A DNA stretch of 64,000 nucleotides from Trueperaceae bacterium (GCA_020354625.1 CP070651.1:3662911-3726910); one strand, 5' to 3'; positions 38,073 through 54,205 are shown, numbered from the stretch's first letter. Numbers and translations: made by a program. The notes: generated by a model not told the origin, from the letters alone.

Positions 38073-39248
38073 ATGACCGTTGTCGTTTCATCAGCTGTGC
38101 GGACGCCCATCGGCGCTTTCCAAGGATCTCTTGCTCGACTCAAGGCCTCTGAACTAGGAGCCGCTTCGGTGGCAGAAGCGGTGAAACGTGCGGGACTCGA
38201 CCCGGGGCAGATCTCTTCTGTGTTGATGGGTAACGTACTCTCTGCCGGTATGGGACAGGCTCCGGCACGTCAGGCGGCTCTCTACGCCGGGCTCGGCCAT
38301 CAGACACCTGCGGTCACCTTGAACAAGATGTGTGGCAGCGGCATGGAAGCGATCGTTCAGGCTGCCCGCGCTGTCGCTCTCGGTGAGGCCGAGGTGGTGG
38401 TGGCCGGGGGGATGGAGTCTATGTCGCGAGCTCCCTACCTCGTTCCCGGTGCACGCGAAGGTTTGCGACTGGGCAACCGGCAGCTGATCGATTCGATGGT
38501 TTACGACGGCTTATGGGATGTCTATAGTGATCGGCATATGGGCTCTTGCGCCGAGATGTGTGCCGCCAAATATAACTTTTCACGCGAGCAGCAAGACGCC
38601 TTTGCAGTCAGCTCCTATGAGAGGGCCCAGAGGGCGGCGCAAGACGGTAGCTTCGCCTCGGAGATCGTGCCGGTGGAGGTTGGGGATCCGAAGGGGGACG
38701 CTAGGTTCGTCCGCGAGGACGAAGGACCTTTCAAAGTCGATTTCGACCGGCTGCCCAGCTTGCGTCCTGCTTTTGAAGAGGGGGGGACGGTCACGGCGGC
38801 AAACGCGTCGACTATCAACGACGGAGCAGCTGCGCTCATCCTTACCAGCGAGGCGTTCGCCCTCGATCGAGGGCTCCCCGTGATCGCCAGAATTCGCGGT
38901 TATGCCGGCCATGCTTCGGCCCCGGAATGGTTCACGACCGCGCCGGTCGCCGCCTTGAGAAAACTCTTCGAGCGGTTGTCTTGGCGGGGGGATACGGTTG
39001 AACTTTTCGAGATCAACGAGGCGTTCAGCGTGGTTCCGATGGCCGCTGCACAGGAGTTGGATCTACCGCTCGAGAAAGTCAACGTTCACGGAGGTGCGGT
39101 CGCGCTCGGTCACCCGATCGGTGCCTCCGGCGCCCGCATCGTTGTAACGCTCCTCAACGCCCTACGACGGAGAGGACAGTCCAGAGGGGTGGCCGCTATT
39201 TGTATCGGTGGTGGGGAGGCGCTTGCATTGGGAGTTGAAATCCCATAG
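38073..39248 (+). CDS. Acetyl-CoA acetyltransferase (thiolase)
   Basis: A 391-aa thiolase. The acyl-accepting Cys is in NKMCGSGMEA near residue 90. The GGMESMSRAPY segment, the catalytic His in HPIGASGARI and the second Cys in CIGGGEALAL are all present. It condenses or cleaves acetyl-CoA and acyl-CoA. Enoyl-CoA hydratase is encoded 2 kb away, in line with fatty-acid or polyhydroxyalkanoate metabolism. GAGGAGGGAG just before the ATG is a strong ribosome site. Confidence 0.95.
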   Translation: MTVVVSSAVRTPIGAFQGSLARLKASELGAASVAEAVKRAGLDPGQISSVLMGNVLSAGMGQAPARQAALYAGLGHQTPAVTLNKMCGSGMEAIVQAARAVALGEAEVVVAGGMESMSRAPYLVPGAREGLRLGNRQLIDSMVYDGLWDVYSDRHMGSCAEMCAAKYNFSREQQDAFAVSSYERAQRAAQDGSFASEIVPVEVGDPKGDARFVREDEGPFKVDFDRLPSLRPAFEEGGTVTAANASTINDGAAALILTSEAFALDRGLPVIARIRGYAGHASAPEWFTTAPVAALRKLFERLSWRGDTVELFEINEAFSVVPMAAAQELDLPLEKVNVHGGAVALGHPIGASGARIVVTLLNALRRRGQSRGVAAICIGGGEALALGVEIP

Positions 39249-39262
39249 GTCGGTGGGTTCGG

Positions 39263-39982
39263 TCACTCGACCTCTTCGGGCATCCGTCCCTGCTGCACGG
39301 CGTCGGCCACCAAGGAAGGCAGACCCCATGCGATGATATCGAACGCTACTGCGGCGAAGTCGTACTCGACTTTATCCATGGTGATGTCGACTCTGTCCTC
39401 GCTGAACTTGAGGAGGGCGTAATCGGCACCCGGTTCGCCGTTGAGGGCGAGACCGACCGAGCCCGGGTTGAGAACCCAACCGGCGTTGAGTTTGCGAACG
39501 TAGGGCACGTGGGTTGCACCACATGCGAGGATCTTGCAGCGGTTTCGCTCCAAGAGTCGCGTCAAGGTGATCGGATCCTTTTGTAGATCGAGTTTTACCG
39601 AGGGTGTCTCGGGGCTGCCGTGGAAGAAGCGGAAACGTCCCGCCGGCGTGCTCAGCTTCTGTTGGACGGGGAGTTTGCGGAGGTACTCGATATGATTGGG
39701 CTCGAGCACGCTCTTGGTCCACTCGAGAATGTCATCGGCAACTCCCGCGCGCCGCTCCTGGTCGCGAGTAAAATCGAATGCGATTCGCTCGTCGGCCGCA
39801 CCCAAGGTACACATAACCCCCTCGTTACGAATGAGGGTTACGGTCTCGTTCGGAGAAGGCCCATACCCAACCAAGTCCCCCAAGCAAATAATAGTGGTGG
39901 CACCCTTGTACTTGAGTTCCTCCAATACGGCTTCAAGTGCGAGGATATTGGCATGTATGTCGCTGATGAGCCCGATGATCAC
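39263..39982 (-). CDS. Calcineurin-like metallophosphoesterase
   Basis: A 239-aa phosphodiesterase of the YfcE/MJ0936 type. Motif I is SDIHAN, motif II CLGDLVGYGP, and the later motif GATHVPYVRK and NPGSVG are present. The usual GNHD motif reads GAADER here, so one metal-binding Asn/His pair is altered, which may change activity. The GTG start at 39982 has a TAGACT 6 nt before it. It converges on the thiolase gene with a 14-bp gap. Confidence 0.85.
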   Translation of the reverse strand: MIIGLISDIHANILALEAVLEELKYKGATTIICLGDLVGYGPSPNETVTLIRNEGVMCTLGAADERIAFDFTRDQERRAGVADDILEWTKSVLEPNHIEYLRKLPVQQKLSTPAGRFRFFHGSPETPSVKLDLQKDPITLTRLLERNRCKILACGATHVPYVRKLNAGWVLNPGSVGLALNGEPGADYALLKFSEDRVDITMDKVEYDFAAVAFDIIAWGLPSLVADAVQQGRMPEEVE

Positions 39983-39988
39983 AAGGCA

Positions 39989-39994
39989 AGTCTA
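39989..39994 (-). promoter_or_regulatory. Leaderless -10 element TAGACT
   Basis: TAGACT on the minus strand ends 6 nt before the GTG at 39982. Confidence 0.55.
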
Positions 39995-40040
39995 GCACCA
40001 GACGCCACGTATCGTGGCAAAATGTCGCGAAGTTCTCATT

Positions 40041-41030
40041 TCAAAAGAGCCCACTCTCTTCGAACAGCCAGCTCTGTACCACCTCCAAAAAAGGATCGGG
40101 ACACTCTTCTTGAGCGACGTGTCCACACCCTTCGAAGATGGCGACTGTGGCATTGGGCAGATCTCGTCCGAGACGCTCGCTCAGTTCTGGGGGAACGATC
40201 CTGTCTTCGGCCCCTGCGATGACGAGCACGGGTTGGGTGATTTCGCTGAGGTACTTTGTGAGTCTCGGTTCCCTACTCGCCTTGCTGAGTTCCCACAGCG
40301 CCCGGTCCCAATTGTCGATTCGAAACGCCTTACGGTAAGCGTCGAGTGTCTCTCGGTCCAGGAGCTCGGGTTTGCTCCAGGCTGCCCGTAGCAGGTTTTC
40401 GCCCGATGGGCCGGCATACTGTCTCATAATCAGAGGTCCGAGGCGGTTGACTTGTGGGGTCGACAGCAAGAGGCGTGTCCAGGCTGGAGTACTGCCGGTT
40501 CGATAGGCGGTGGCGCCCACCAGGATAAGCCCTGCTACCCGCTCGGGATGCTCGAGGGCGGCCTTCAGCGCGATAGCGCCACCTGTGGAATGACCTACCA
40601 ATATCGCTTCGACGATACCTAGCTGATCCATCAGCTCGATCGTCAGGGTGACTTGTGCTTCAGGACCGTAGGGATTGGTGCCCTGCCATTCGCCCGGCAA
40701 GGGACGCTCGGTCAGGCCGAAGCCGGGGCGGTCGAAGGCGACCGCCTTGGTGATCGTTCCCAGTGGTTCGAGTACCTGGTGCCACGTGTAGATGCCGGTA
40801 CCGGAACCGTGCAAGAGGACGAAGGCAGAGGTGCCCTCGAGTGGAAGGCTCGAGCTTTTGACGTGAACGTTGAGGTCGCCGATATCGATAAACTGGCTGT
40901 CGTCATCTGCTAACTCCTGCTCATCGACCGTATCGGTAAGTGGTGGGATCGGTATGAGAAAAGGACCCAATGCTACCAGCACGGCCATAGCCAGCAGGAT
41001 CGCGAGCGAGACCTTGATACGGAACGGCAT
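40041..41030 (-). CDS. Membrane-anchored alpha/beta hydrolase
   Basis: A 329-aa hydrolase. An N-terminal membrane segment (about 5-26) anchors it. The catalytic domain has the HGSGTG oxyanion strand, the nucleophile elbow GHSTGG, the acid in AGAEDRIVPP and the final His in GCGHVAQEE. The substrate is not known; epoxide hydrolase, haloalkane dehalogenase and lipase relatives share this fold. The frame continues to a TTG right after the enoyl-CoA hydratase stop (41102), but the ATG at 41030 begins just before the membrane helix. It is 72 bp downstream of that gene and may share its transcript. Confidence 0.82.
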   Translation of the reverse strand: MPFRIKVSLAILLAMAVLVALGPFLIPIPPLTDTVDEQELADDDSQFIDIGDLNVHVKSSSLPLEGTSAFVLLHGSGTGIYTWHQVLEPLGTITKAVAFDRPGFGLTERPLPGEWQGTNPYGPEAQVTLTIELMDQLGIVEAILVGHSTGGAIALKAALEHPERVAGLILVGATAYRTGSTPAWTRLLLSTPQVNRLGPLIMRQYAGPSGENLLRAAWSKPELLDRETLDAYRKAFRIDNWDRALWELSKASREPRLTKYLSEITQPVLVIAGAEDRIVPPELSERLGRDLPNATVAIFEGCGHVAQEECPDPFLEVVQSWLFEESGLF

Positions 41031-41102
41031 GACATGATTTAACCACAGGCCAGAGCTTGGATCTGGTTTTTCGCGACTGGCTTCAGAGCAGAACAGACAC
41101 AA

Positions 41103-41909
41103 CTACTGACCTTTGAATACCGCAGCGCGCTTCTCCAAAAAGGCCCTGGTTCCCTCTTTCATATCTGAGGTCGTGGCGACGAGCCCGAATAGATCTGCTT
41201 CGATCTCGAGACCTTGATTGATGGTGACGTCCAAGCCGCGGACAACCGCCTCCTTGGCCAAGCCGAGGGCGATCGGTGCATTTTTGCTCATCTGGGCCGC
41301 CAGATCTTTCGCCTCTGATAGTGCGTTGTCTGCGACACGGTTGACCAAGCCGAGTTGCAGTGCCTCCTCGGCGCTGACGTGGCGACCTGTGAGAATTAGA
41401 TCGAGAGCTCGTCCCTGGCCGATAAGCCTGGGTAGCCGCTGTGTCCCACCGTAACCGGGTAACAGACCGAGGCCGACCTCGGGCAGGCCGAGCTTTGCTT
41501 CGCGACTTGCTACACGGAGGTCGGCAGCCAAGGCCAGCTCGAGACCTCCACCAAACGCAAAGCCGTTGATCGCTGCGATGGTGGGGAAGGGGAGTGCTGA
41601 GAGGGTGTTCATCACGTCCTGTCCTGCCAGTGCTGCCTCGCGACCGCTGAAGACATCCGATAAGTTCTGCAAGTTACCGATGTCGGCTCCGGCAGCGAAA
41701 GCTCGCCCCGTACCAGTAATGATCAAGCACCGGACGTTCAGGTCGGCTTCTGCGAGTTCGAAAGCCAAGCTGAGCTCCAAGAGCAGCTCCGCATTCAGGG
41801 CGTTCAACGTCTCACTCCGGTCGAGCGTGATGATCGCCACGTTTGCAGATATGTCGTACCGAAGCAGCTGAAAGTCGGGGGCCTCTGCGTATGATCCCTG
41901 CTCGTTCAT
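41103..41909 (-). CDS. Enoyl-CoA hydratase
   Basis: A 268-aa crotonase-fold protein. The oxyanion-hole segments GRAFAAGADI and GFAFGGGLELALA, and both catalytic Glu (in ELALAADL and LPEVGLGLLPG), are present. It hydrates 2-enoyl-CoA in beta-oxidation. The ATG at 41909 has GAGGAG 8 nt upstream; an ATG nine codons earlier is less favoured. The 270 bp up to the Roadblock gene have no other gene. Confidence 0.93.
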   Translation of the reverse strand: MNEQGSYAEAPDFQLLRYDISANVAIITLDRSETLNALNAELLLELSLAFELAEADLNVRCLIITGTGRAFAAGADIGNLQNLSDVFSGREAALAGQDVMNTLSALPFPTIAAINGFAFGGGLELALAADLRVASREAKLGLPEVGLGLLPGYGGTQRLPRLIGQGRALDLILTGRHVSAEEALQLGLVNRVADNALSEAKDLAAQMSKNAPIALGLAKEAVVRGLDVTINQGLEIEADLFGLVATTSDMKEGTRAFLEKRAAVFKGQ

Positions 41910-42146
41910 CTTCTTCGCTCCTCGATGAGGGTTCAACCGTCACGGTCGTCTTCTTGCAACTACACGCCACACGCTAAGGTAGACCGGATGCGGAAGCGGG
42001 CCTTCGGGCTTGCGCGCAAGTGAAACGTGCATCGTCCTTTGTAGCCGCCGCAAGCGTCGATGATCTTCACCTCGGCATTAAATTACGATACCAGATGTCA
42101 ACCTAACTTGTGAGCCGAGGCCAGACCCCAGGTGCGAAAACTTAAA

Positions 42147-42175
42147 CTTGATGCGGTGCTGGGGCGTGCTACACT
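42147..42175 (+). promoter_or_regulatory. Promoter of the Roadblock operon, leaderless
   Basis: TTGATG at 42147-42152 and TACACT at 42170-42175 are separated by about 17 nt. TACACT ends 7 nt before the ATG at 42183, so this is a good -35/-10 pair for a leaderless message. Confidence 0.7.
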
Positions 42176-42182
42176 TTTCGCG

Positions 42183-42545
42183 ATGACGGAACTCGACGAG
42201 ATACTCGCACATTTGGTGGACAACGTGGACGGTACGATGATGGCTGCGGTGGGAGGAATGGACGGTTTGTTGGTCGAGCAGTATCCTCACAATAACACCG
42301 ACCTCTCTGCAACCACAGCCGAGCTGACCAATGTACTCAATAACAGTAGGACAGCGTTTATGCAAGGTCTTGAAGGGGGCGATCTCAGAGAAGTTATCGT
42401 AACCTCGGAAAATCTAGTCGGTTATACACGTCTACTCAACGAAGATTTCTTCTGCCTGCTCGTTTTGGACGCCCTCGGCAATATCGGTAAGGCGCGTCTC
42501 TATAGCGATCAAGCGGTCAGGCACATTCTCGAGGTTTTTGCGTGA
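42183..42545 (+). CDS. Roadblock/LC7 domain protein 1
   Basis: A 120-aa Roadblock/LC7 fold protein. It shows the family pattern: an N-terminal helix, a first strand AAVGGMDGLLVEQY, a long helix, then FCLLVLDALGNIGKARLY. Bacterial members such as MglB act on small GTPases or serve as scaffolds. No MglA-type GTPase is found in the window. A frame upstream to 42132 precedes the -10, which fixes the ATG at 42183. The second Roadblock gene follows 22 bp later. Confidence 0.83.
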   Translation: MTELDEILAHLVDNVDGTMMAAVGGMDGLLVEQYPHNNTDLSATTAELTNVLNNSRTAFMQGLEGGDLREVIVTSENLVGYTRLLNEDFFCLLVLDALGNIGKARLYSDQAVRHILEVFA

Positions 42546-42567
42546 GCGTTGCGCAGGGAGGGTAGAT

Positions 42568-42930
42568 GTGAATCTCGTCGACCTATTACAGCAGGCCCTT
42601 TCAATCAGAGGGATCACCAGCATCTCGGTGGTGAGTGGAGACGGCGAAATCGTCGAAGGTGTCTCGAATGACAATATCGAACTCGGTTTTGTCGGAGGTC
42701 TCATCGCCAGCAGTTTGGCGTCGAGCCAAGTGTTGGCAGGTCTACTCGGTGAGGGTGAAGTGACCCAGACCATGATCGAGTACGAGAACGGACCTGTGTT
42801 GCTCACGCCCCTCAACCCTGAACAAGGCTATGTAGCGGTCGTCACGCTCGAATCGACCCAGATCCTGGGCCGGGCTCGCTTTCAGCTGCGCAAGATTCTC
42901 CCCGACATCGCCCAAGCGGTAACTGCGTGA
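42568..42930 (+). CDS. Roadblock/LC7 domain protein 2
   Basis: A 120-aa protein with the same fold and length as the preceding one: ISVVSGDGEIVEGVS for the first strand pair and GYVAVVTLESTQILGRARF for the last. Two different Roadblock proteins in tandem could form a heterodimer. GGGAGGG lies 5 nt before the GTG start. Its stop overlaps the GTG of the DUF3467 gene (GTGA), so the two are translationally coupled. Confidence 0.8.
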   Translation: MNLVDLLQQALSIRGITSISVVSGDGEIVEGVSNDNIELGFVGGLIASSLASSQVLAGLLGEGEVTQTMIEYENGPVLLTPLNPEQGYVAVVTLESTQILGRARFQLRKILPDIAQAVTA

Positions 42931-43199
42931 AGGAGTTCAAGCTCGAACTCGATAAAGAGACAGCCCAAGGACGCTACGCGAATGTCGCCGTGATTGTGCA
43001 TACGCGTGACGAGTTCATTGTCGACTTTGCTCTCGCTTACCCGCAGCAGGCACCCCTTGTGAGCAGTCGTGTCATCACCAGTCCCCGGCATGCCAAAGCT
43101 TTGTTGCGCAGTCTTGAGGACAACATTCGGCGCTACGAAGCGAGGTACGGCAAGATTCCAGAACGTTCTACCAAAAAAGATCCCACAATCCAGAACTAA
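42927..43199 (+). CDS. DUF3467 family protein
   Basis: A 90-aa protein that fits DUF3467: FIVDFALAYPQQAPLVSSRVI (given in part as DEFIVDFALAYP), then ITSPRHAKALLRSLEDNIRRYE. DUF3467 proteins are small, widespread and of unknown function. The start overlaps the end of Roadblock 2 by 4 bp. Its place as third gene in the Roadblock operon suggests a shared job, which is inference. Confidence 0.75.
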   Translation: MKEFKLELDKETAQGRYANVAVIVHTRDEFIVDFALAYPQQAPLVSSRVITSPRHAKALLRSLEDNIRRYEARYGKIPERSTKKDPTIQN

Positions 43200-43278
43200 A
43201 AGTTGAACGATCCCGACAGACCCCGAACGGGATCATGAGGCTGTTACCCGGATTACCAGTCGGAGGGGCGGGGCAAGA

Positions 43279-43284
43279 TGTAAT
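43279..43284 (+). promoter_or_regulatory. Possible -10 element TGTAAT
   Basis: TGTAAT ends 6 nt before the ATG at 43291. It differs from TANNNT at the second base, so the call is weak. Confidence 0.3.
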
Positions 43285-43290
43285 AAGCCT

Positions 43291-43908
43291 ATGCCCGAAC
43301 TTGTCAGGGTCTACTTCGATTATGTGTGTCCGTTTGCGTGGCGTGGTGCTGAAGTGGCCGAACTCGTAGCAGAAGAACTCGATCTGTCTTTCGATTGGCG
43401 ACACTTCAGCCTCTACCAGAGCAACCATCGGGGAAGAGATCACTGGCAGCTTTGGAACGATAGGATCGATTTTCAAGACGATAACGGTTGCAAAGGGCTT
43501 TTCCCCTTTCTGGCTTCGTGTGCTGCACGTCGTCAAGGGGAGCAAAAGTATGATGCCTTTCGCTTGCAGCTTCTAAGGGCGCGCCATCGTAATCATTGCC
43601 CCTTGAACCGGACAACCATTTTTGAGGCGGCAGGGGCTGCTGGTCTGCACCTGCCGCAGTTCGAAGACGATCTCGCCGATCCGGAGTGCCGTACAGTGCT
43701 CGCACAAGAGCACCACCGTGCAGCTGCGCTCGACGTATTTGGAACGCCCACCTTCCATTTTTCAAGCGGTCACCTCGCCTACTTTCGGATTCGTGAACTC
43801 CCCAGGAGTCGTGTTGAGGCTCTCGATCTCTTTTCCTCCTATAAGAGGTTGCTTGAAGCCTATCCGTATCTGGAGACGATCAAAAGGCCGAGACGGAAAG
43901 GAAATTGA
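43291..43908 (+). CDS. DsbA-family thioredoxin-fold protein with one active-site Cys
   Basis: A 205-aa DsbA/FrnE/HCCA-isomerase-like protein. The active site is DYVCPFAW near residue 14: only the first Cys of a CPxC is left. The cis-Pro loop DVFGTPTFHF and the domain order are as in the family. Single-Cys members act as glutathione- or thiol-dependent isomerases or disulfide reductants. Other Cys occur in GCKGLF and SCAARRQ. It has no signal peptide, so it is cytoplasmic. It lies between the Roadblock operon and the phosphatase/kinase pair. Confidence 0.75.
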   Translation: MPELVRVYFDYVCPFAWRGAEVAELVAEELDLSFDWRHFSLYQSNHRGRDHWQLWNDRIDFQDDNGCKGLFPFLASCAARRQGEQKYDAFRLQLLRARHRNHCPLNRTTIFEAAGAAGLHLPQFEDDLADPECRTVLAQEHHRAAALDVFGTPTFHFSSGHLAYFRIRELPRSRVEALDLFSSYKRLLEAYPYLETIKRPRRKGN

Positions 43909-43955
43909 TGTCCCTCAGTGTGGAAATTCCTCATCGGTTTTCTAGGTAAAGGCGC

Positions 43956-43961
43956 TACACT
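43956..43961 (+). promoter_or_regulatory. Leaderless -10 element TACACT for the PP2C gene
   Basis: TACACT ends 5 nt before the GTG at 43967. Confidence 0.6.
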
Positions 43962-43966
43962 TAGGC

Positions 43967-44731
43967 GTGCGTCTTGGTCAGAATGTCGGCCACGGTTCAG
44001 ATGTTGGGCGTGTCCGACCTCTCAATGAGGACTATCACCGCGTCTGGCAATTCCCGGTTCCTGGTAGCAACCTCACCCTATTGGCTGTAGCTGATGGTAT
44101 GGGGGGAGCGGCGGCCGGTGAGGTGGCAAGCAAGCTTGCCATGGAGGTGTTGGACGAATCCTTCAGTCGCTATGTGGAAGAGCTCGAGAACGGCAACCCC
44201 GTGATCGGAATCGAAAAGTTGACGGAAAAGGCGATTCGCCTTGCGAACCGTCGCGTCTACGCTGCGGCGATCGGCAATCAAGGTCGGCGTGGTATGGGTA
44301 CGACCCTTACCGTTGTGGCGGTGAACGGAAGCAAGGCTTTTTTGGGTCATGTCGGTGATTCACGAGCCTATTTGGTTCGCGGCAGTAAAATCTACCAGCT
44401 GACCAAGGACCACTCCTGGGTCGAGGAGCAGTTGGAACGTGGTCTGATCACCGAGGATGAGGCGGAAAGGCACGAGTGGCGTAACTTGATTACCCGTGCG
44501 CTGGGTACTCGGCCTCAGGTAGCCCCGGATATGGTGGAGATCGACGTTCAGCAGGGGGATGTGTTTGTGATTTCGACCGACGGGCTACACGGGTTGGTCA
44601 AACCAGAGGAGATTCTTTCTGAAGTGCGTCGTACAAATAATCGTCAGTCGAGTGTAGAGTTCCTGATTTCACTAGCCAATGATCGGGGTGGTCCGGATAA
44701 TATCACCCTGGTAATTGCCGAGGTGGCCTAA
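43967..44731 (+). CDS. PP2C-type Ser/Thr protein phosphatase
   Basis: A 254-aa PPM/PP2C phosphatase. Metal-binding motifs are RPLNEDYHR, ADGMGGAAAGE, GHVGDSRAYLV, STDGLHGLV and DRGGPDNITLV. It removes phosphate from Ser/Thr residues, most likely those set by the kinase encoded next. The kinase ATG follows its TAA directly (no gap), so the two are translated as a pair. The start GTG has a TACACT 5 nt upstream. Confidence 0.95.
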   Translation: MRLGQNVGHGSDVGRVRPLNEDYHRVWQFPVPGSNLTLLAVADGMGGAAAGEVASKLAMEVLDESFSRYVEELENGNPVIGIEKLTEKAIRLANRRVYAAAIGNQGRRGMGTTLTVVAVNGSKAFLGHVGDSRAYLVRGSKIYQLTKDHSWVEEQLERGLITEDEAERHEWRNLITRALGTRPQVAPDMVEIDVQQGDVFVISTDGLHGLVKPEEILSEVRRTNNRQSSVEFLISLANDRGGPDNITLVIAEVA

Positions 44732-46792
44732 ATGTTGTGGCTCTTCTTGATTCTCATAGCAATCCTCGCCGCCGTGTTGATTCGCTTCCCCGTGTGGTTG
44801 GATTATGGCCTTCTGGGTGTGGCGTTGATCGTCAGTCTGGGACTGGTGTCGGTAGCGGGGCTAGAACGGTCCGTGGCCACTGTGGTGCTCTATTCTTTCT
44901 CGCTCGGTCTGCTGGTGCCTGCCGGTGGATACGTTATGCGCAATTCACGGGTGGCGCCACCGCGTAGAGATCGCACCAAAAGCACGCCGTCTTCGAGTCA
45001 GGGTAAAGCTCGTAAGAGCAGCGATTTGATGGGCTTTGAATCGATCGATATCCCCGGCTACGAGATCCTTGAGAAGGTCGGCTCGGGTGGGATGGCGAGC
45101 GTTTACCGGGGACGGCGCGAGTCGGATGATCAGACCGTGGCCTTGAAGATTCCCATGGAACAGTACGTCGCCGACGCAAAGTTCATCAGGCGGTTCCACC
45201 GTGAGGCCGAAGTGGCACAGCGGTTGAACCACGTCAACATCGTACGCACCTACGAGCACGGTAGCATCGGCATCAAGCACTACATGATCATGGAGTACGT
45301 CGACGGCAGGAGCCTCGAGGGATTTATCGAGGCGAAAGAGCTGGTCATCGGCACCAGCATCGAGATCATGAAACTGGTGGTGAAGGCCCTACAGCACATT
45401 CACTCAGCCGGCATTATCCACCGAGATATCAAGCCTGCCAACATCATGATTCTTCGGGGGGGAATCAGCTCCGATGTCGATGGTACGTCCACGTTGGCAT
45501 CTGACGCCGTCAAACTCATGGACTTCGGTATTGCCGGTGGCAAGGTACTCTCCCGTCTCACCATGACGGGGGCAAGGGTCGGTACGCCTGTGTACATGTC
45601 TCCCGAGCAGGCACGTGGGCATAAGATCGACCACCGAAGCGATATCTACAGTCTCGGCCTCGTCTTTTACGAGATGCTGACTGGGGAGACGCCCTTCAAG
45701 GGTGGCTACGAAGCGATCGTCCACCAACAGATCTTCCAGACTCCTCCTCCCCCGAGGCAGCGCAACCTAGAGGTTTCCAAGGCACTCGATAACCTGGTGA
45801 TGCGCATGATCGCCAAAGATCCGGATGAGCGTCCCAACCTCGAGGAGGTCTTCGAGACGCTCGAGCAGGGCAATCACGACGATTCGGAAGACATGAACCT
45901 CCCCAGCCAGATCATCCTCACGGTGAGTGCCCGTCAGGGTGTGCTCAGGGTGCTCGATCCCGACGGCATCTTACACACCACCTTGGGGGATATCGGTGTG
46001 GGGCCGGGGTCGTTCTCAGCGGCGCCCTTATCGGTTTCGCTCGATAGTGAAGGCAACTTTTACGCTGCTGTGTTTGAGTACCGCGTCGGTCAGGACGACC
46101 ACCGCATGATCCACAAACTCGCTCCAGACGGTTCTCCACTCATGTCCTTTGGGGGATACGGGATGAAACCGGGTGAGTTCCTCTACCCGATCTCGCTCTC
46201 GGTGGCTCCTGACGACACCGTTTACGTGCTCGATTCGGAGACTCATCTGGTGCAGCATTTCGACTCAGATGGAAAGCTGCTCAACAAGTTCGGGGGTCGT
46301 GGTGCCGGGAAGGGGCTCTTCAACGATCCGCGCTCGATCGTCGTATCTGGGATCGGGGCAGTTTACGTTCTCGACCACGGGAACCGCCAGATCCAGCGGT
46401 TCGATGCCAGCGGTCGCTACGAAACCCGTTGGGCCTTCAAGCTCGGTGGGGATCAGGAGGGCATGCGCACGCTCGATGGGATGGCGGTCGATGAGGAGGG
46501 GAACCTCTATATCAGCGACGCGACCGGCGGCAAGGTTCGCAAGGTCACGCCCGAAGGCAAGGTCAGCAAGTCGTTTACCTTGGATCCCTTGCAAGGTGAA
46601 TCGACCGACACCATGCTCGATCTCGGGGTCGATGACGGTGGCTATCTATATGCTGCGAGGCGCGGTGGACATATGATTCGCAAGTATGATCCTGCGGGCC
46701 AACTGATGGAAACCATGGAAACCTATGCGCCGGTGGTGCAGATGGTGGTCAACGTGAGGCGTTCGACCGTGGCCGCCAAAGAACTCGCCTAA
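44732..46792 (+). CDS. Membrane Ser/Thr protein kinase with NHL beta-propeller
   Basis: A 686-aa protein. Three membrane segments (about 1-19, 21-43, 48-69) come first, then a basic linker (70-100) and a Hanks-type kinase (about 110-378). Its key residues are the glycine loop GSGGMA (117-122), K139, E158, HRDIKPAN (230-237) and DFG (264-266). A 12-residue insert stands just before DFG. NHL repeats fill about 395-680 (KLAPDGSPLMSFGGYG, FDSDGKLLNKFGG and others). No membrane helix separates kinase and propeller, and the basic linker favours a cytoplasmic C-terminus. The propeller should therefore be inside the cell, unlike PknD of M. tuberculosis. It is directly after its PP2C partner. Confidence 0.93.
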   Translation: MLWLFLILIAILAAVLIRFPVWLDYGLLGVALIVSLGLVSVAGLERSVATVVLYSFSLGLLVPAGGYVMRNSRVAPPRRDRTKSTPSSSQGKARKSSDLMGFESIDIPGYEILEKVGSGGMASVYRGRRESDDQTVALKIPMEQYVADAKFIRRFHREAEVAQRLNHVNIVRTYEHGSIGIKHYMIMEYVDGRSLEGFIEAKELVIGTSIEIMKLVVKALQHIHSAGIIHRDIKPANIMILRGGISSDVDGTSTLASDAVKLMDFGIAGGKVLSRLTMTGARVGTPVYMSPEQARGHKIDHRSDIYSLGLVFYEMLTGETPFKGGYEAIVHQQIFQTPPPPRQRNLEVSKALDNLVMRMIAKDPDERPNLEEVFETLEQGNHDDSEDMNLPSQIILTVSARQGVLRVLDPDGILHTTLGDIGVGPGSFSAAPLSVSLDSEGNFYAAVFEYRVGQDDHRMIHKLAPDGSPLMSFGGYGMKPGEFLYPISLSVAPDDTVYVLDSETHLVQHFDSDGKLLNKFGGRGAGKGLFNDPRSIVVSGIGAVYVLDHGNRQIQRFDASGRYETRWAFKLGGDQEGMRTLDGMAVDEEGNLYISDATGGKVRKVTPEGKVSKSFTLDPLQGESTDTMLDLGVDDGGYLYAARRGGHMIRKYDPAGQLMETMETYAPVVQMVVNVRRSTVAAKELA

Positions 46793-51700: not shown

Positions 51701-54205
51701 TTACTCCTCGGAGTGGAGGAGCGCCGGCAGCTCCGCAATCAGGTTTCGCGCTAACTCGAGTTCCTCTTCGAAAGTGTGAACCCGCTGGGCTGCACGCGCC
51801 CTGGCGACCTCCTCGAGGACTTTGCCGACCTCGGGACCAGACGCCAGCCCCAAGTCTAACACGTCCTGACCGCGCAGTTTCCGTCGCCTCGGCACCTTCT
51901 CGAAAGCGGTGACGCGCGCTCTGAGCTCCGGGCCGAAGGCCTTCACCACCGCCCGCCCGGCCTCTCCGAGGCGCTCGAGATCTTCGTCCCTGACCAGCTC
52001 GCGCCGTTCGATGTCGAGCAGCCGGCCGCGGGCCTGGAGGTAGCGCTTGGGCCAACGAAATGCTTCGAAGTGCGCTCCCACTCGATCGTCCTCGAGCCGC
52101 AGCAGGAGTGCCAAGAGACAGCTCTCGCCCGGCAACGCGATCTGTTGAGCCAGTTCATCGAGGGTGAGCAGCAGTTGCCGGTCGACGCTGAGGTTAAACA
52201 TCGCTCCGAGCGCCCCGATCTCTTCGAGATAGAAGAGCGCGGGCCCGGGACGGGGTTCTTGGCAACAGAGCTCGAGCTCGCTCCGCAAACGCTCCCGGCT
52301 CACCTTGTCGAGTACCTCGGGGATCAGGGCAGCTTTGGCCCGCTGTAACGTGATGTCGTCAAAATGGAAACCGAGGCGCCCAGCCAGGCGTGCCCCGCGC
52401 AGGATGCGCGTGGGATCCTCGATGAACGACAGGGGGTGGAGTAGCTTGAGCTCCTTCGCCTCCATGTCGGCGAGGCCACCGTAGGGGTCGAGCAGGGTCG
52501 CCGGTTTGGGATGAAAGCGCAAGGCGAGTGCGTTGACCGTAAAATCTCTCCGGGAGAGGTCCTTTCGGAGCGTGCTCGGGGTGACGGTGGGTAGGGCGCC
52601 GGGGTGCCGGTAGTATTCCTCACGGGCTGTGGCGAGATCGATCACCAGGCCGCTCGGCAACACCAGTGTGCAGGTGCCGAACCCTTGATGACAGTTCAGT
52701 CGCCCCCCAAACGACGACTTTAGGATGCGTCCTAATCGTTGGGCGTTTCCAGCTTCCAGTACCAGATCGAGGTCTTGAAGGCCTGTGCCGAGCAAGGCGT
52801 CGCGGACCGTGCCGCCTACCAGGTAGATCGCCGTGTCGGGAGCTGCCTCGGCTGCTTTGGCCAGGACATCGAGAACCATGGTGGGGAGGCGCGACAACAC
52901 TCGATCGGAAGGGATCTGCGTCGCTTTTGTCTCGTGGCGGGCGGCGATGAGGTCGGTGCGTGTCACGATGCCAACCAGCTCATTACCCCGCATGATCGGG
53001 AGGCGACCCACGTTGTTTGTCATGACCAGTTCTTCTAATTCGGCGAGGGTAGAGCCCTCGTCGGCGGTGATTATGTCACGCGACATGAAGCCCACTACCG
53101 AGGAGCGTCCGAGGCCGTGACGGAGCGCTCGTTCGAGGTCGCGGCGCGAGAGGATGCCGACCAGCTGCTCCTCTTTGTCGATGACCGGGACTCCGTTGTG
53201 ACCGTAGTGAATCAATAGGCGCTGGGCTTCGGTAACGGTGGCGTCGTCGCGGATCGTTTTCACCGGATGACTCATCAACGTGGCGGCGGTCAATACCGGT
53301 ACCGCGTACCGCTCCATGGTTTCGAGCGCTGTCTCGAGCGCCGTATCCGGATCGACATCGGCCTTTGCGAACGCAGCGCCCGGGTGTCCACCGCCCCCGA
53401 ACGCTTCGGCAAAGGCGGCTGCCACGTCGAAGTTCTGATGGGCCCGGCCGAAAAGGAGCGTCTTTTCTCCCATGCGTACGACCAACAGCGCGGCATCGGC
53501 TGAGAACAGCGTGAGGAGTTGACTGCAGAGGCTGGACACCCCTGGTAGGTACTGCGGGTAGTGAAAGCTCGAGACCACCAGATGGTGACCGGCCAGCGTG
53601 ATCTCGCGGGCGTGTTCCAACATCGTCTCTTGAAAGGTGCGGTGTTCTGTGCGGTAGACCTCGCGGGTGAATTTTTGAACCAACTCCAGACTCGCTCCGC
53701 AACGCAGCAGATAGGCGGCTGCTTCGTAATCGTCGGGCTTGGTGAGCTCATAACTCAGATTCCCGGTGTCTTCGTGGATGCCCAAGAGCGCCAGACTTGC
53801 AAGTGAAGGGGAGACTTCGATCCCTCTCGTCCTGAGTTGGCGCGTGAGCAGGGTGGCGGTGGCACCGACCTGTTCTACCAGACCGCGTGCTGCCGGGATG
53901 GCGTTACCCGGCCTCGGGTGGTGGTCGTAAAGCGTGATCGGGACCTTACCGATCAGCTCGTCGAAGGGTTTGATCCGGGTACGGTCGGCGGTGTCGACCA
54001 CCACCAACTCGCTTATCTCGGCCAAGTCGATCTGATCGACCTCCAATAGCTCGAGCTGGTCTCGGTAGAGGTGGATGAACGTGCGCACCCCGTCGCCAAG
54101 ACCTCCTTGAACCGTGGCGAACGAACCTGGGAAGACGAGCTTGGCGAGCGCAAGGCTCGCCAGCGCATCGAAGTCGGGCTGTTCGTGGGTGATAATGAGC
54201 CGCAT
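51701..54205 (-). CDS. tRNA nucleotidyltransferase fused to DHH and CBS domains
   Basis: An 834-aa four-part protein. A DHH phosphoesterase domain (about 1-150) has HEQPDFDAL, DTADR and DHHPRPG; a DHHA1 domain (to about 310) has the GGGGHPGAA. Two CBS repeats span about 315-425. The C-terminal class II tRNA nucleotidyltransferase (about 455-830) has GGTVRDALLG, the DLDLV metal Asp pair and RDFTVNALA. In Aquifex and Deinococcus relatives, such enzymes share CCA synthesis between a CC-adding and an A-adding protein, so this could be either one. The DHH part suggests an added nuclease or nucleotide phosphodiesterase role. TACACT is 8 nt before the ATG. Confidence 0.93.
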   Translation of the reverse strand: MRLIITHEQPDFDALASLALAKLVFPGSFATVQGGLGDGVRTFIHLYRDQLELLEVDQIDLAEISELVVVDTADRTRIKPFDELIGKVPITLYDHHPRPGNAIPAARGLVEQVGATATLLTRQLRTRGIEVSPSLASLALLGIHEDTGNLSYELTKPDDYEAAAYLLRCGASLELVQKFTREVYRTEHRTFQETMLEHAREITLAGHHLVVSSFHYPQYLPGVSSLCSQLLTLFSADAALLVVRMGEKTLLFGRAHQNFDVAAAFAEAFGGGGHPGAAFAKADVDPDTALETALETMERYAVPVLTAATLMSHPVKTIRDDATVTEAQRLLIHYGHNGVPVIDKEEQLVGILSRRDLERALRHGLGRSSVVGFMSRDIITADEGSTLAELEELVMTNNVGRLPIMRGNELVGIVTRTDLIAARHETKATQIPSDRVLSRLPTMVLDVLAKAAEAAPDTAIYLVGGTVRDALLGTGLQDLDLVLEAGNAQRLGRILKSSFGGRLNCHQGFGTCTLVLPSGLVIDLATAREEYYRHPGALPTVTPSTLRKDLSRRDFTVNALALRFHPKPATLLDPYGGLADMEAKELKLLHPLSFIEDPTRILRGARLAGRLGFHFDDITLQRAKAALIPEVLDKVSRERLRSELELCCQEPRPGPALFYLEEIGALGAMFNLSVDRQLLLTLDELAQQIALPGESCLLALLLRLEDDRVGAHFEAFRWPKRYLQARGRLLDIERRELVRDEDLERLGEAGRAVVKAFGPELRARVTAFEKVPRRRKLRGQDVLDLGLASGPEVGKVLEEVARARAAQRVHTFEEELELARNLIAELPALLHSEE

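Follow-up and report, generated by a model that had tools for sequence, protein, structure and literature searches.

A Roadblock operon of Trueperaceae with an MglC-like and an MglB-like member, candidate accessories of the MglA/MglB polarity switch

RobA and RobB, two Roadblock proteins encoded side by side in a Trueperaceae bacterium (Deinococcota), may assist the MglA/MglB polarity switch in trans, with the phosphatase and perhaps the kinase of a separate unit as phosphorylation input, a reading to which we assign a probability of about one half. RobA is akin to MglC of Myxococcus, and across the phylum RobB is present in nearly all genomes with the GTPase MglA and missing or decayed where MglA is missing. 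The window analysed is a 64,000-nt stretch of the genome (CP070651.1:3662911-3726910), in which the gene cluster occupies positions 42147-46792.

Results

Genes and putative promoters of the locus

Profile searches found all six genes that the initial annotation had listed, in the same order (Table 1). The genes of RobA, RobB and the DUF3467 protein are, judged by their spacing, packed as one putative operon: a 22-nt gap with a Shine-Dalgarno sequence separates RobA from RobB, whose GTG start was picked for the Shine-Dalgarno GGAGGG, and the DUF3467 start overlaps the RobB stop. The earlier proposal of one promoter for these three genes fits both this packing and the promoter-like sequence 5' of RobA.

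Table 1. Genes and putative regulatory elements of the cluster (window positions).
Feature	Position	Strand	Basis
Putative Roadblock operon promoter, TTGATG-N16-TACACT, 7 nt 5' of RobA ATG, leaderless type	42148..42175	+	sequence; box in relatives
RobA, MglC-like Roadblock, 120 aa	42183..42545	+	Pfam Robl_LC7 21.8 bits, PDB 7ct3, tree, model
RobB, short MglB-like Roadblock, ~120 aa	42568..42930	+	Pfam Roadblock 39.3 bits (cut-off 23); family profile; tree
DUF3467 protein	42927..43199	+	PF11950 76.1 bits (gathering score 25)
Upstream pattern of DsbA-like gene, GCTGT...TACC...TAAT, putative own promoter/operator	43240..43286	+	ungapped conservation, 15 loci
Monothiol DsbA-like protein	43291..43908	+	Pfam DSBA 56 bits; single Cys in CPFAW
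Putative -10 box TACACT, 5 nt 5' of PP2C GTG	43956..43961	+	box in relatives
PP2C phosphatase, Stp1/IreP type	43967..44731	+	NCBIfam NF033484 240.3 (cut-off 230)
Ser/Thr kinase with C-terminal NHL repeats and N-terminal membrane segments	44732..46792	+	Pkinase 183.7 bits, NHL 48 bits

TANACT-like boxes, which are consensus matches and hence putative promoters, end 5-9 nt 5' of the PP2C start in 9 of 10 relatives (background 0.4%) and 5-9 nt 5' of the RobA start in all 5 relatives scored (background 0.8%). Such a box also stands ahead of DUF3467 in 5 of 14 loci, and none was found 5' of the RobB, DsbA-like and kinase genes among the relatives scored. A scan for E. coli-type promoters gave no excess and missed both leaderless-type sites, those of RobA and PP2C. 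Upstream of the monothiol DsbA-like gene, GCTGT-N8-TACC-N23-TAAT occurs in 15 Trueperaceae loci and is possibly the site of a specific regulator or sigma factor. The PP2C-kinase pair is thus predicted to have its own conserved promoter of the leaderless type, and the DsbA-like gene likewise appears to have its own. A single promoter for all six genes was considered and rejected on the evidence of the putative PP2C -10 box and the DsbA-like upstream pattern, both of which are conserved.

The Roadblock operon adjoins genes for a thiolase, a metallophosphatase, an alpha/beta hydrolase and an enoyl-CoA hydratase (window 38073-41936), which are kept in Trueperaceae and remain with RobB in two genomes where the locus splits (G096 and G108). 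An 834-aa ORF at 51701-54205, which by eye looks like a fusion of DHH, CBS and tRNA nucleotidyltransferase parts, has a homologue close to the cluster at several loci of Trueperaceae.

RobA is MglC-like

RobA belongs to the Roadblock/LC7 family despite a Pfam score just below the cut-off of 23: the assignment is clear by profile, and the model of the protein (pLDDT 95.6) shows a confident Roadblock fold. When a profile of 19 RobA orthologues was compared with the PDB, Myxococcus MglC came out on top with 79.4 bits, against 42 for another Roadblock (7f8m) and 28 for MglB; RobA alone matched MglC (7ct3) with 45.7 bits. A maximum-likelihood tree, built on few columns and with MglC on a long branch, joins RobA and MglC in one clade with a support of 96/92. 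RobA shares with MglC of Myxococcus xanthus (PDB 7ct3/7cy1) a length of ~120 aa, 30% identity over 117 columns and the D-G of the beta1-beta2 turn, whereas its operon, unlike that of MglC, holds other Roadblocks and DUF3467. Foldseek placed MglC best by E-value, yet in shape the RobA model has a TM of 0.65 to MglC and 0.89 to the Roadblock 3kye; the predicted shape is nearer to ordinary Roadblocks, which speaks indirectly against the shifted alpha2 helix of the MglC crystal structure (PMC7949163).

The surfaces through which MglC contacts its partners are retained unevenly. At the MglB contact, F25-D26-I28 (PMC10329633), the Asp is invariant in the 19 RobA sequences, I28 is replaced by Leu in all and F25, mostly Met, is kept in 1. 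The RomR contact, K104-R106-R110 (PMC10329633), is not kept as a site, with R106 found in 18/19 sequences, K104 in 6/19 and R110 in 1/19. On this sequence evidence we describe RobA as MglC-like, short of a proven MglC.

RobB and RobC are distinct from canonical MglB

The RobB family profile finds MglB first in the PDB (44 bits), and that of RobC, a third Roadblock of related loci, matches generic Roadblocks. Since iterated Roadblock profiles fused into one superfamily and left the paralogues unsorted, they were sorted by position and tree, where RobB, RobC and the mglA-linked MglB form one clade each. RobB was rejected as a true MglB: it scores 15.1 against the 200 of the NCBIfam MglB equivalog, does not stand beside mglA and falls in a separate clade. 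The MglB of the mglB-mglA pair in the same genome passes this equivalog with 210.5. A RobC overlooked elsewhere in the genome of the window was searched for and not found.

DsbA-like and DUF3467 proteins

The claim of the initial annotation that the DsbA-like protein has a single Cys was correct. CP[FY][AS]W is present in 15/15 aligned orthologues, which makes the protein an invariant monothiol, and the CXXC active site of DsbA oxidoreductases is absent from all 15. The DUF3467 model (pLDDT 85.7) consists of three strands and a long helix. Sequence and fold searches of the PDB gave no significant match for DUF3467, the best fold matches being PURA and MoSub1, nucleic-acid binders of the PUR/PC4 type (non-significant, best E 0.15, TM ~0.4), and a literature search returned one paper only, on chlorhexidine. 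In a Bacteroidales genome (L134:2-6273), DUF3467 comes after rpoB and a large, partly masked ORF that is probably rpoC; in a Caldithrix genome (L131:5505-6291), it comes after a gene for an RsbW-type HATPase. The DsbA-like and DUF3467 proteins are tied less firmly to the MglA/MglB pathway than are RobA/RobB and the PP2C.

Phosphatase and kinase

The PP2C carries the metal-site motifs ADGMGG, GDSR and RGGPDN, and the kinase the motifs HRDIKPAN, DFG and SPE. Membrane segments of the kinase occur only in residues 1-70, with none after residue 380, and no hydrophobic segment lies between the kinase domain and the NHL part. The N-terminal membrane segments would therefore leave kinase domain and NHL repeats together on one side of the membrane, an arrangement unusual among NHL kinases. 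In PknD-type kinases, a membrane segment stands between the kinase and the NHL propeller, a layout that the present kinase lacks. The pair resembles the Stp1/PknB phosphatase-kinase pairs in that its PP2C exceeds the Stp1/IreP cut-off and the PP2C stop abuts the kinase start. It differs in its kinase, which reaches a whole-protein score of 282 against 450 for Stk1/PknB PASTA kinases and has, instead of PASTA, NHL repeats on the kinase-domain side of the membrane.

Gene order across Deinococcota

Families and genomes are cited by our own labels where needed (f1, Trueperaceae; f5, Thermus, Meiothermus and Calidithermus). The order RobA-RobC-RobB-DUF3467 was found in Thermus, most f4 genomes, one f3 genome and several Trueperaceae; Meiothermus and Calidithermus have RobC-RobB-DUF3467, and the genome of the window has RobA-RobB-DUF3467 without RobC. 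The ancestral Deinococcota unit is accordingly reconstructed as a probable RobA-RobC-RobB, usually followed by DUF3467, with RobC lost in the genome of the window. In Thermaceae the Roadblock set comes after ybaB-recR. The f2 genomes, some f3 and some f1 genomes either have DUF3467 apart from the Roadblocks or lack it. DUF3467 itself is present in 98 of 111 genomes, as a single copy in most Deinococcota searched.

The NHL kinase gene lies at most 12 kb from DUF3467 in 64 of the 94 genomes that have both. In Trueperaceae it is found 1.5-3.5 kb 3' of DUF3467 on the same strand (29 of 33 genomes having both), and in 35 genomes of two other families it lies within the same 12 kb on the opposite strand. 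In many Thermaceae the PP2C and NHL-kinase genes are divergent and 5-9 kb from the Roadblock set, so that the pair is a long-standing neighbour of the Roadblocks. Between this pair and the ybaB-recR-Roadblock set, Thermaceae have a gene of ~540 aa that matches no Pfam family clearly (L068:2008-4128). Conservation of gene order, the check proposed with the initial annotation, was thus borne out, phylum-wide for RobA/RobB-DUF3467 and by proximity for the kinase, and within Trueperaceae the order of the cluster is conserved beyond chance.

MglA is encoded elsewhere and is accompanied by RobB

The initial statement that no MglA-like gene is present holds for the locus and fails for the genome, in which an mglB-mglA pair is encoded at ~C1:1728452-1729612, ~2 Mb from RobA/RobB, and PilB/PilT-type ATPases are also present. 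A Roadblock pair in a genome without GTPase is thereby ruled out. At none of the loci read does mglA adjoin RobA or RobB. In the set of 86 genomes with a completeness of 90% or more, MglA and RobB are found together in 79, MglA only in 2, RobB only in 1 and neither in 4 (p 3.5e-5). DUF3467 and the kinase show no such association with MglA (p 0.35 and 0.26, respectively); all these p values ignore phylogeny. That the locus has Roadblocks and no GTPase is no longer puzzling, because the MglA/MglB pair lies elsewhere in the genome and the presence of RobB tracks MglA.

A PP2C gene stands beside the kinase gene in 15/16 loci of MglA-bearing genomes, G108 being the sole exception, and in 0/4 loci of genomes without MglA (p 0.001; 0.006 with one per genus). 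Within one genus (g15), G103 keeps MglA, RobB and PP2C, whereas its sisters G104 and G106 are without MglA and, at the locus, without RobB and PP2C, and retain DUF3467, the DsbA-like gene and the kinase. In G110, MglA, RobA, RobB and DUF3467 have been lost along with the pilus ATPases. G100, which has likewise lost MglA and these ATPases, still carries a RobB, decayed and on a long branch. In genomes without MglA, then, RobB is lost or decayed, PP2C is missing beside the kinase and the kinase is usually kept; these losses fall in about three lineages, phylogenetically clumped and partly in fragmented genomes.

Discussion

With the canonical MglA/MglB switch the present system shares a genome that also encodes mglB-mglA, and the co-occurrence of RobB with MglA across the phylum; it differs in the distant location of RobA/RobB and in RobB being a protein of ~120 aa with a clade of its own. 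Myxococcus MglB and MglC form a 4:2 complex (PMC7949163), and by analogy RobA and RobB may form a heteromer. In T. thermophilus, mutants in mglA and mglB are reported to show an effect on pilus localisation (PMC12024867), and RobA/RobB would modulate MglA/MglB in trans for pilus polarity. The PP2C-kinase pair would set the phosphorylation state of some component of the pathway, the kinase having other roles as well. Sequence relationship, gene order and joint absence are observations, while the contacts, the action on MglA and the phosphorylation input are inferred from them. A link between the Roadblocks and the phosphatase is supported because the absence of PP2C goes with the absence of MglA and RobB. 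Several observations speak against RobA/RobB as accessories of MglA: RobA is absent from Meiothermus-type genomes that retain MglA, the RomR-contact residues are not kept, the RobA model lacks the shape particular to MglC, the losses are few and clumped, and neither gene stands beside mglA at any locus read.

The initial annotation had suggested a module that joins a Roadblock scaffold with Ser/Thr phosphorylation. Conserved order and the joint absence of PP2C, RobB and MglA favour part of this suggestion, while the cluster is probably not one co-transcribed module and the kinase outlives the Roadblocks. In its self-contained form, where the Roadblock pair and DUF3467 would serve the neighbouring kinase and phosphatase as scaffold or substrate, independently of any GTPase, we consider it unlikely: the adjacency in Trueperaceae, the proximity in another orientation in two other families and the disappearance of PP2C together with RobB agree with it, but the promoters are putatively separate, the kinase is kept in genomes without Roadblocks, RobB follows MglA, and in f2, f3 and G096 the Roadblock genes are separated from PP2C-kinase. 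A neighbourhood without functional meaning, in which the Roadblock operon, the DsbA-like gene and the PP2C-kinase pair stay together through slow rearrangement in the family, is a reading to be taken seriously, if a doubtful one. It would explain why the neighbouring enoyl-CoA hydratase, hydrolase and thiolase genes are equally conserved and agrees with three putatively separate transcription units; against it, PP2C-kinase lies near the Roadblocks in two different arrangements, and PP2C and RobB are missing together with MglA.

Two further readings involve transcription. The genomic settings of DUF3467 in Bacteroidales (after rpoB and the presumed rpoC) and Caldithrix (after an RsbW-type ATPase), together with its resemblance to PURA and MoSub1, would suit a DUF3467 that binds nucleic acid or RNA polymerase and is regulated by the Roadblocks. 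With those fold matches as weak as they are, and DUF3467 absent or apart where Roadblocks are kept (f2, G083 and G096), this is very unlikely. It is quite improbable, too, that two or three Roadblocks form a Ragulator-like heteromeric platform joining MglA, the propeller Ser/Thr kinase and PP2C, and through DUF3467 transcription.

The preferred reading, RobA/RobB as accessories of MglA/MglB, also bears on other bacterial Roadblocks. The Streptomyces conservons, which combine a Roadblock with a GTPase and a histidine kinase (PMC4316618), likewise place a Roadblock gene in a conserved signalling neighbourhood, whereas the locus described here is without GTPase and histidine kinase and has instead a Ser/Thr kinase and PP2C, predicted to be transcribed separately. 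As of 2014, none of the 'orphan' Roadblock proteins had been characterised (PMC4316618); the cluster gives a setting for such proteins and a context clue for DUF3467. Our search found MglC papers on Myxococcus and no report of MglC in Thermus. How type IV pili come to be biased to one pole in Thermus thermophilus has been called unclear (PMC12393216), and the MglC-like gene of Thermus and its relatives, in an operon with two more Roadblocks, is a concrete candidate for the mechanism behind this bias in a genetically tractable genus.
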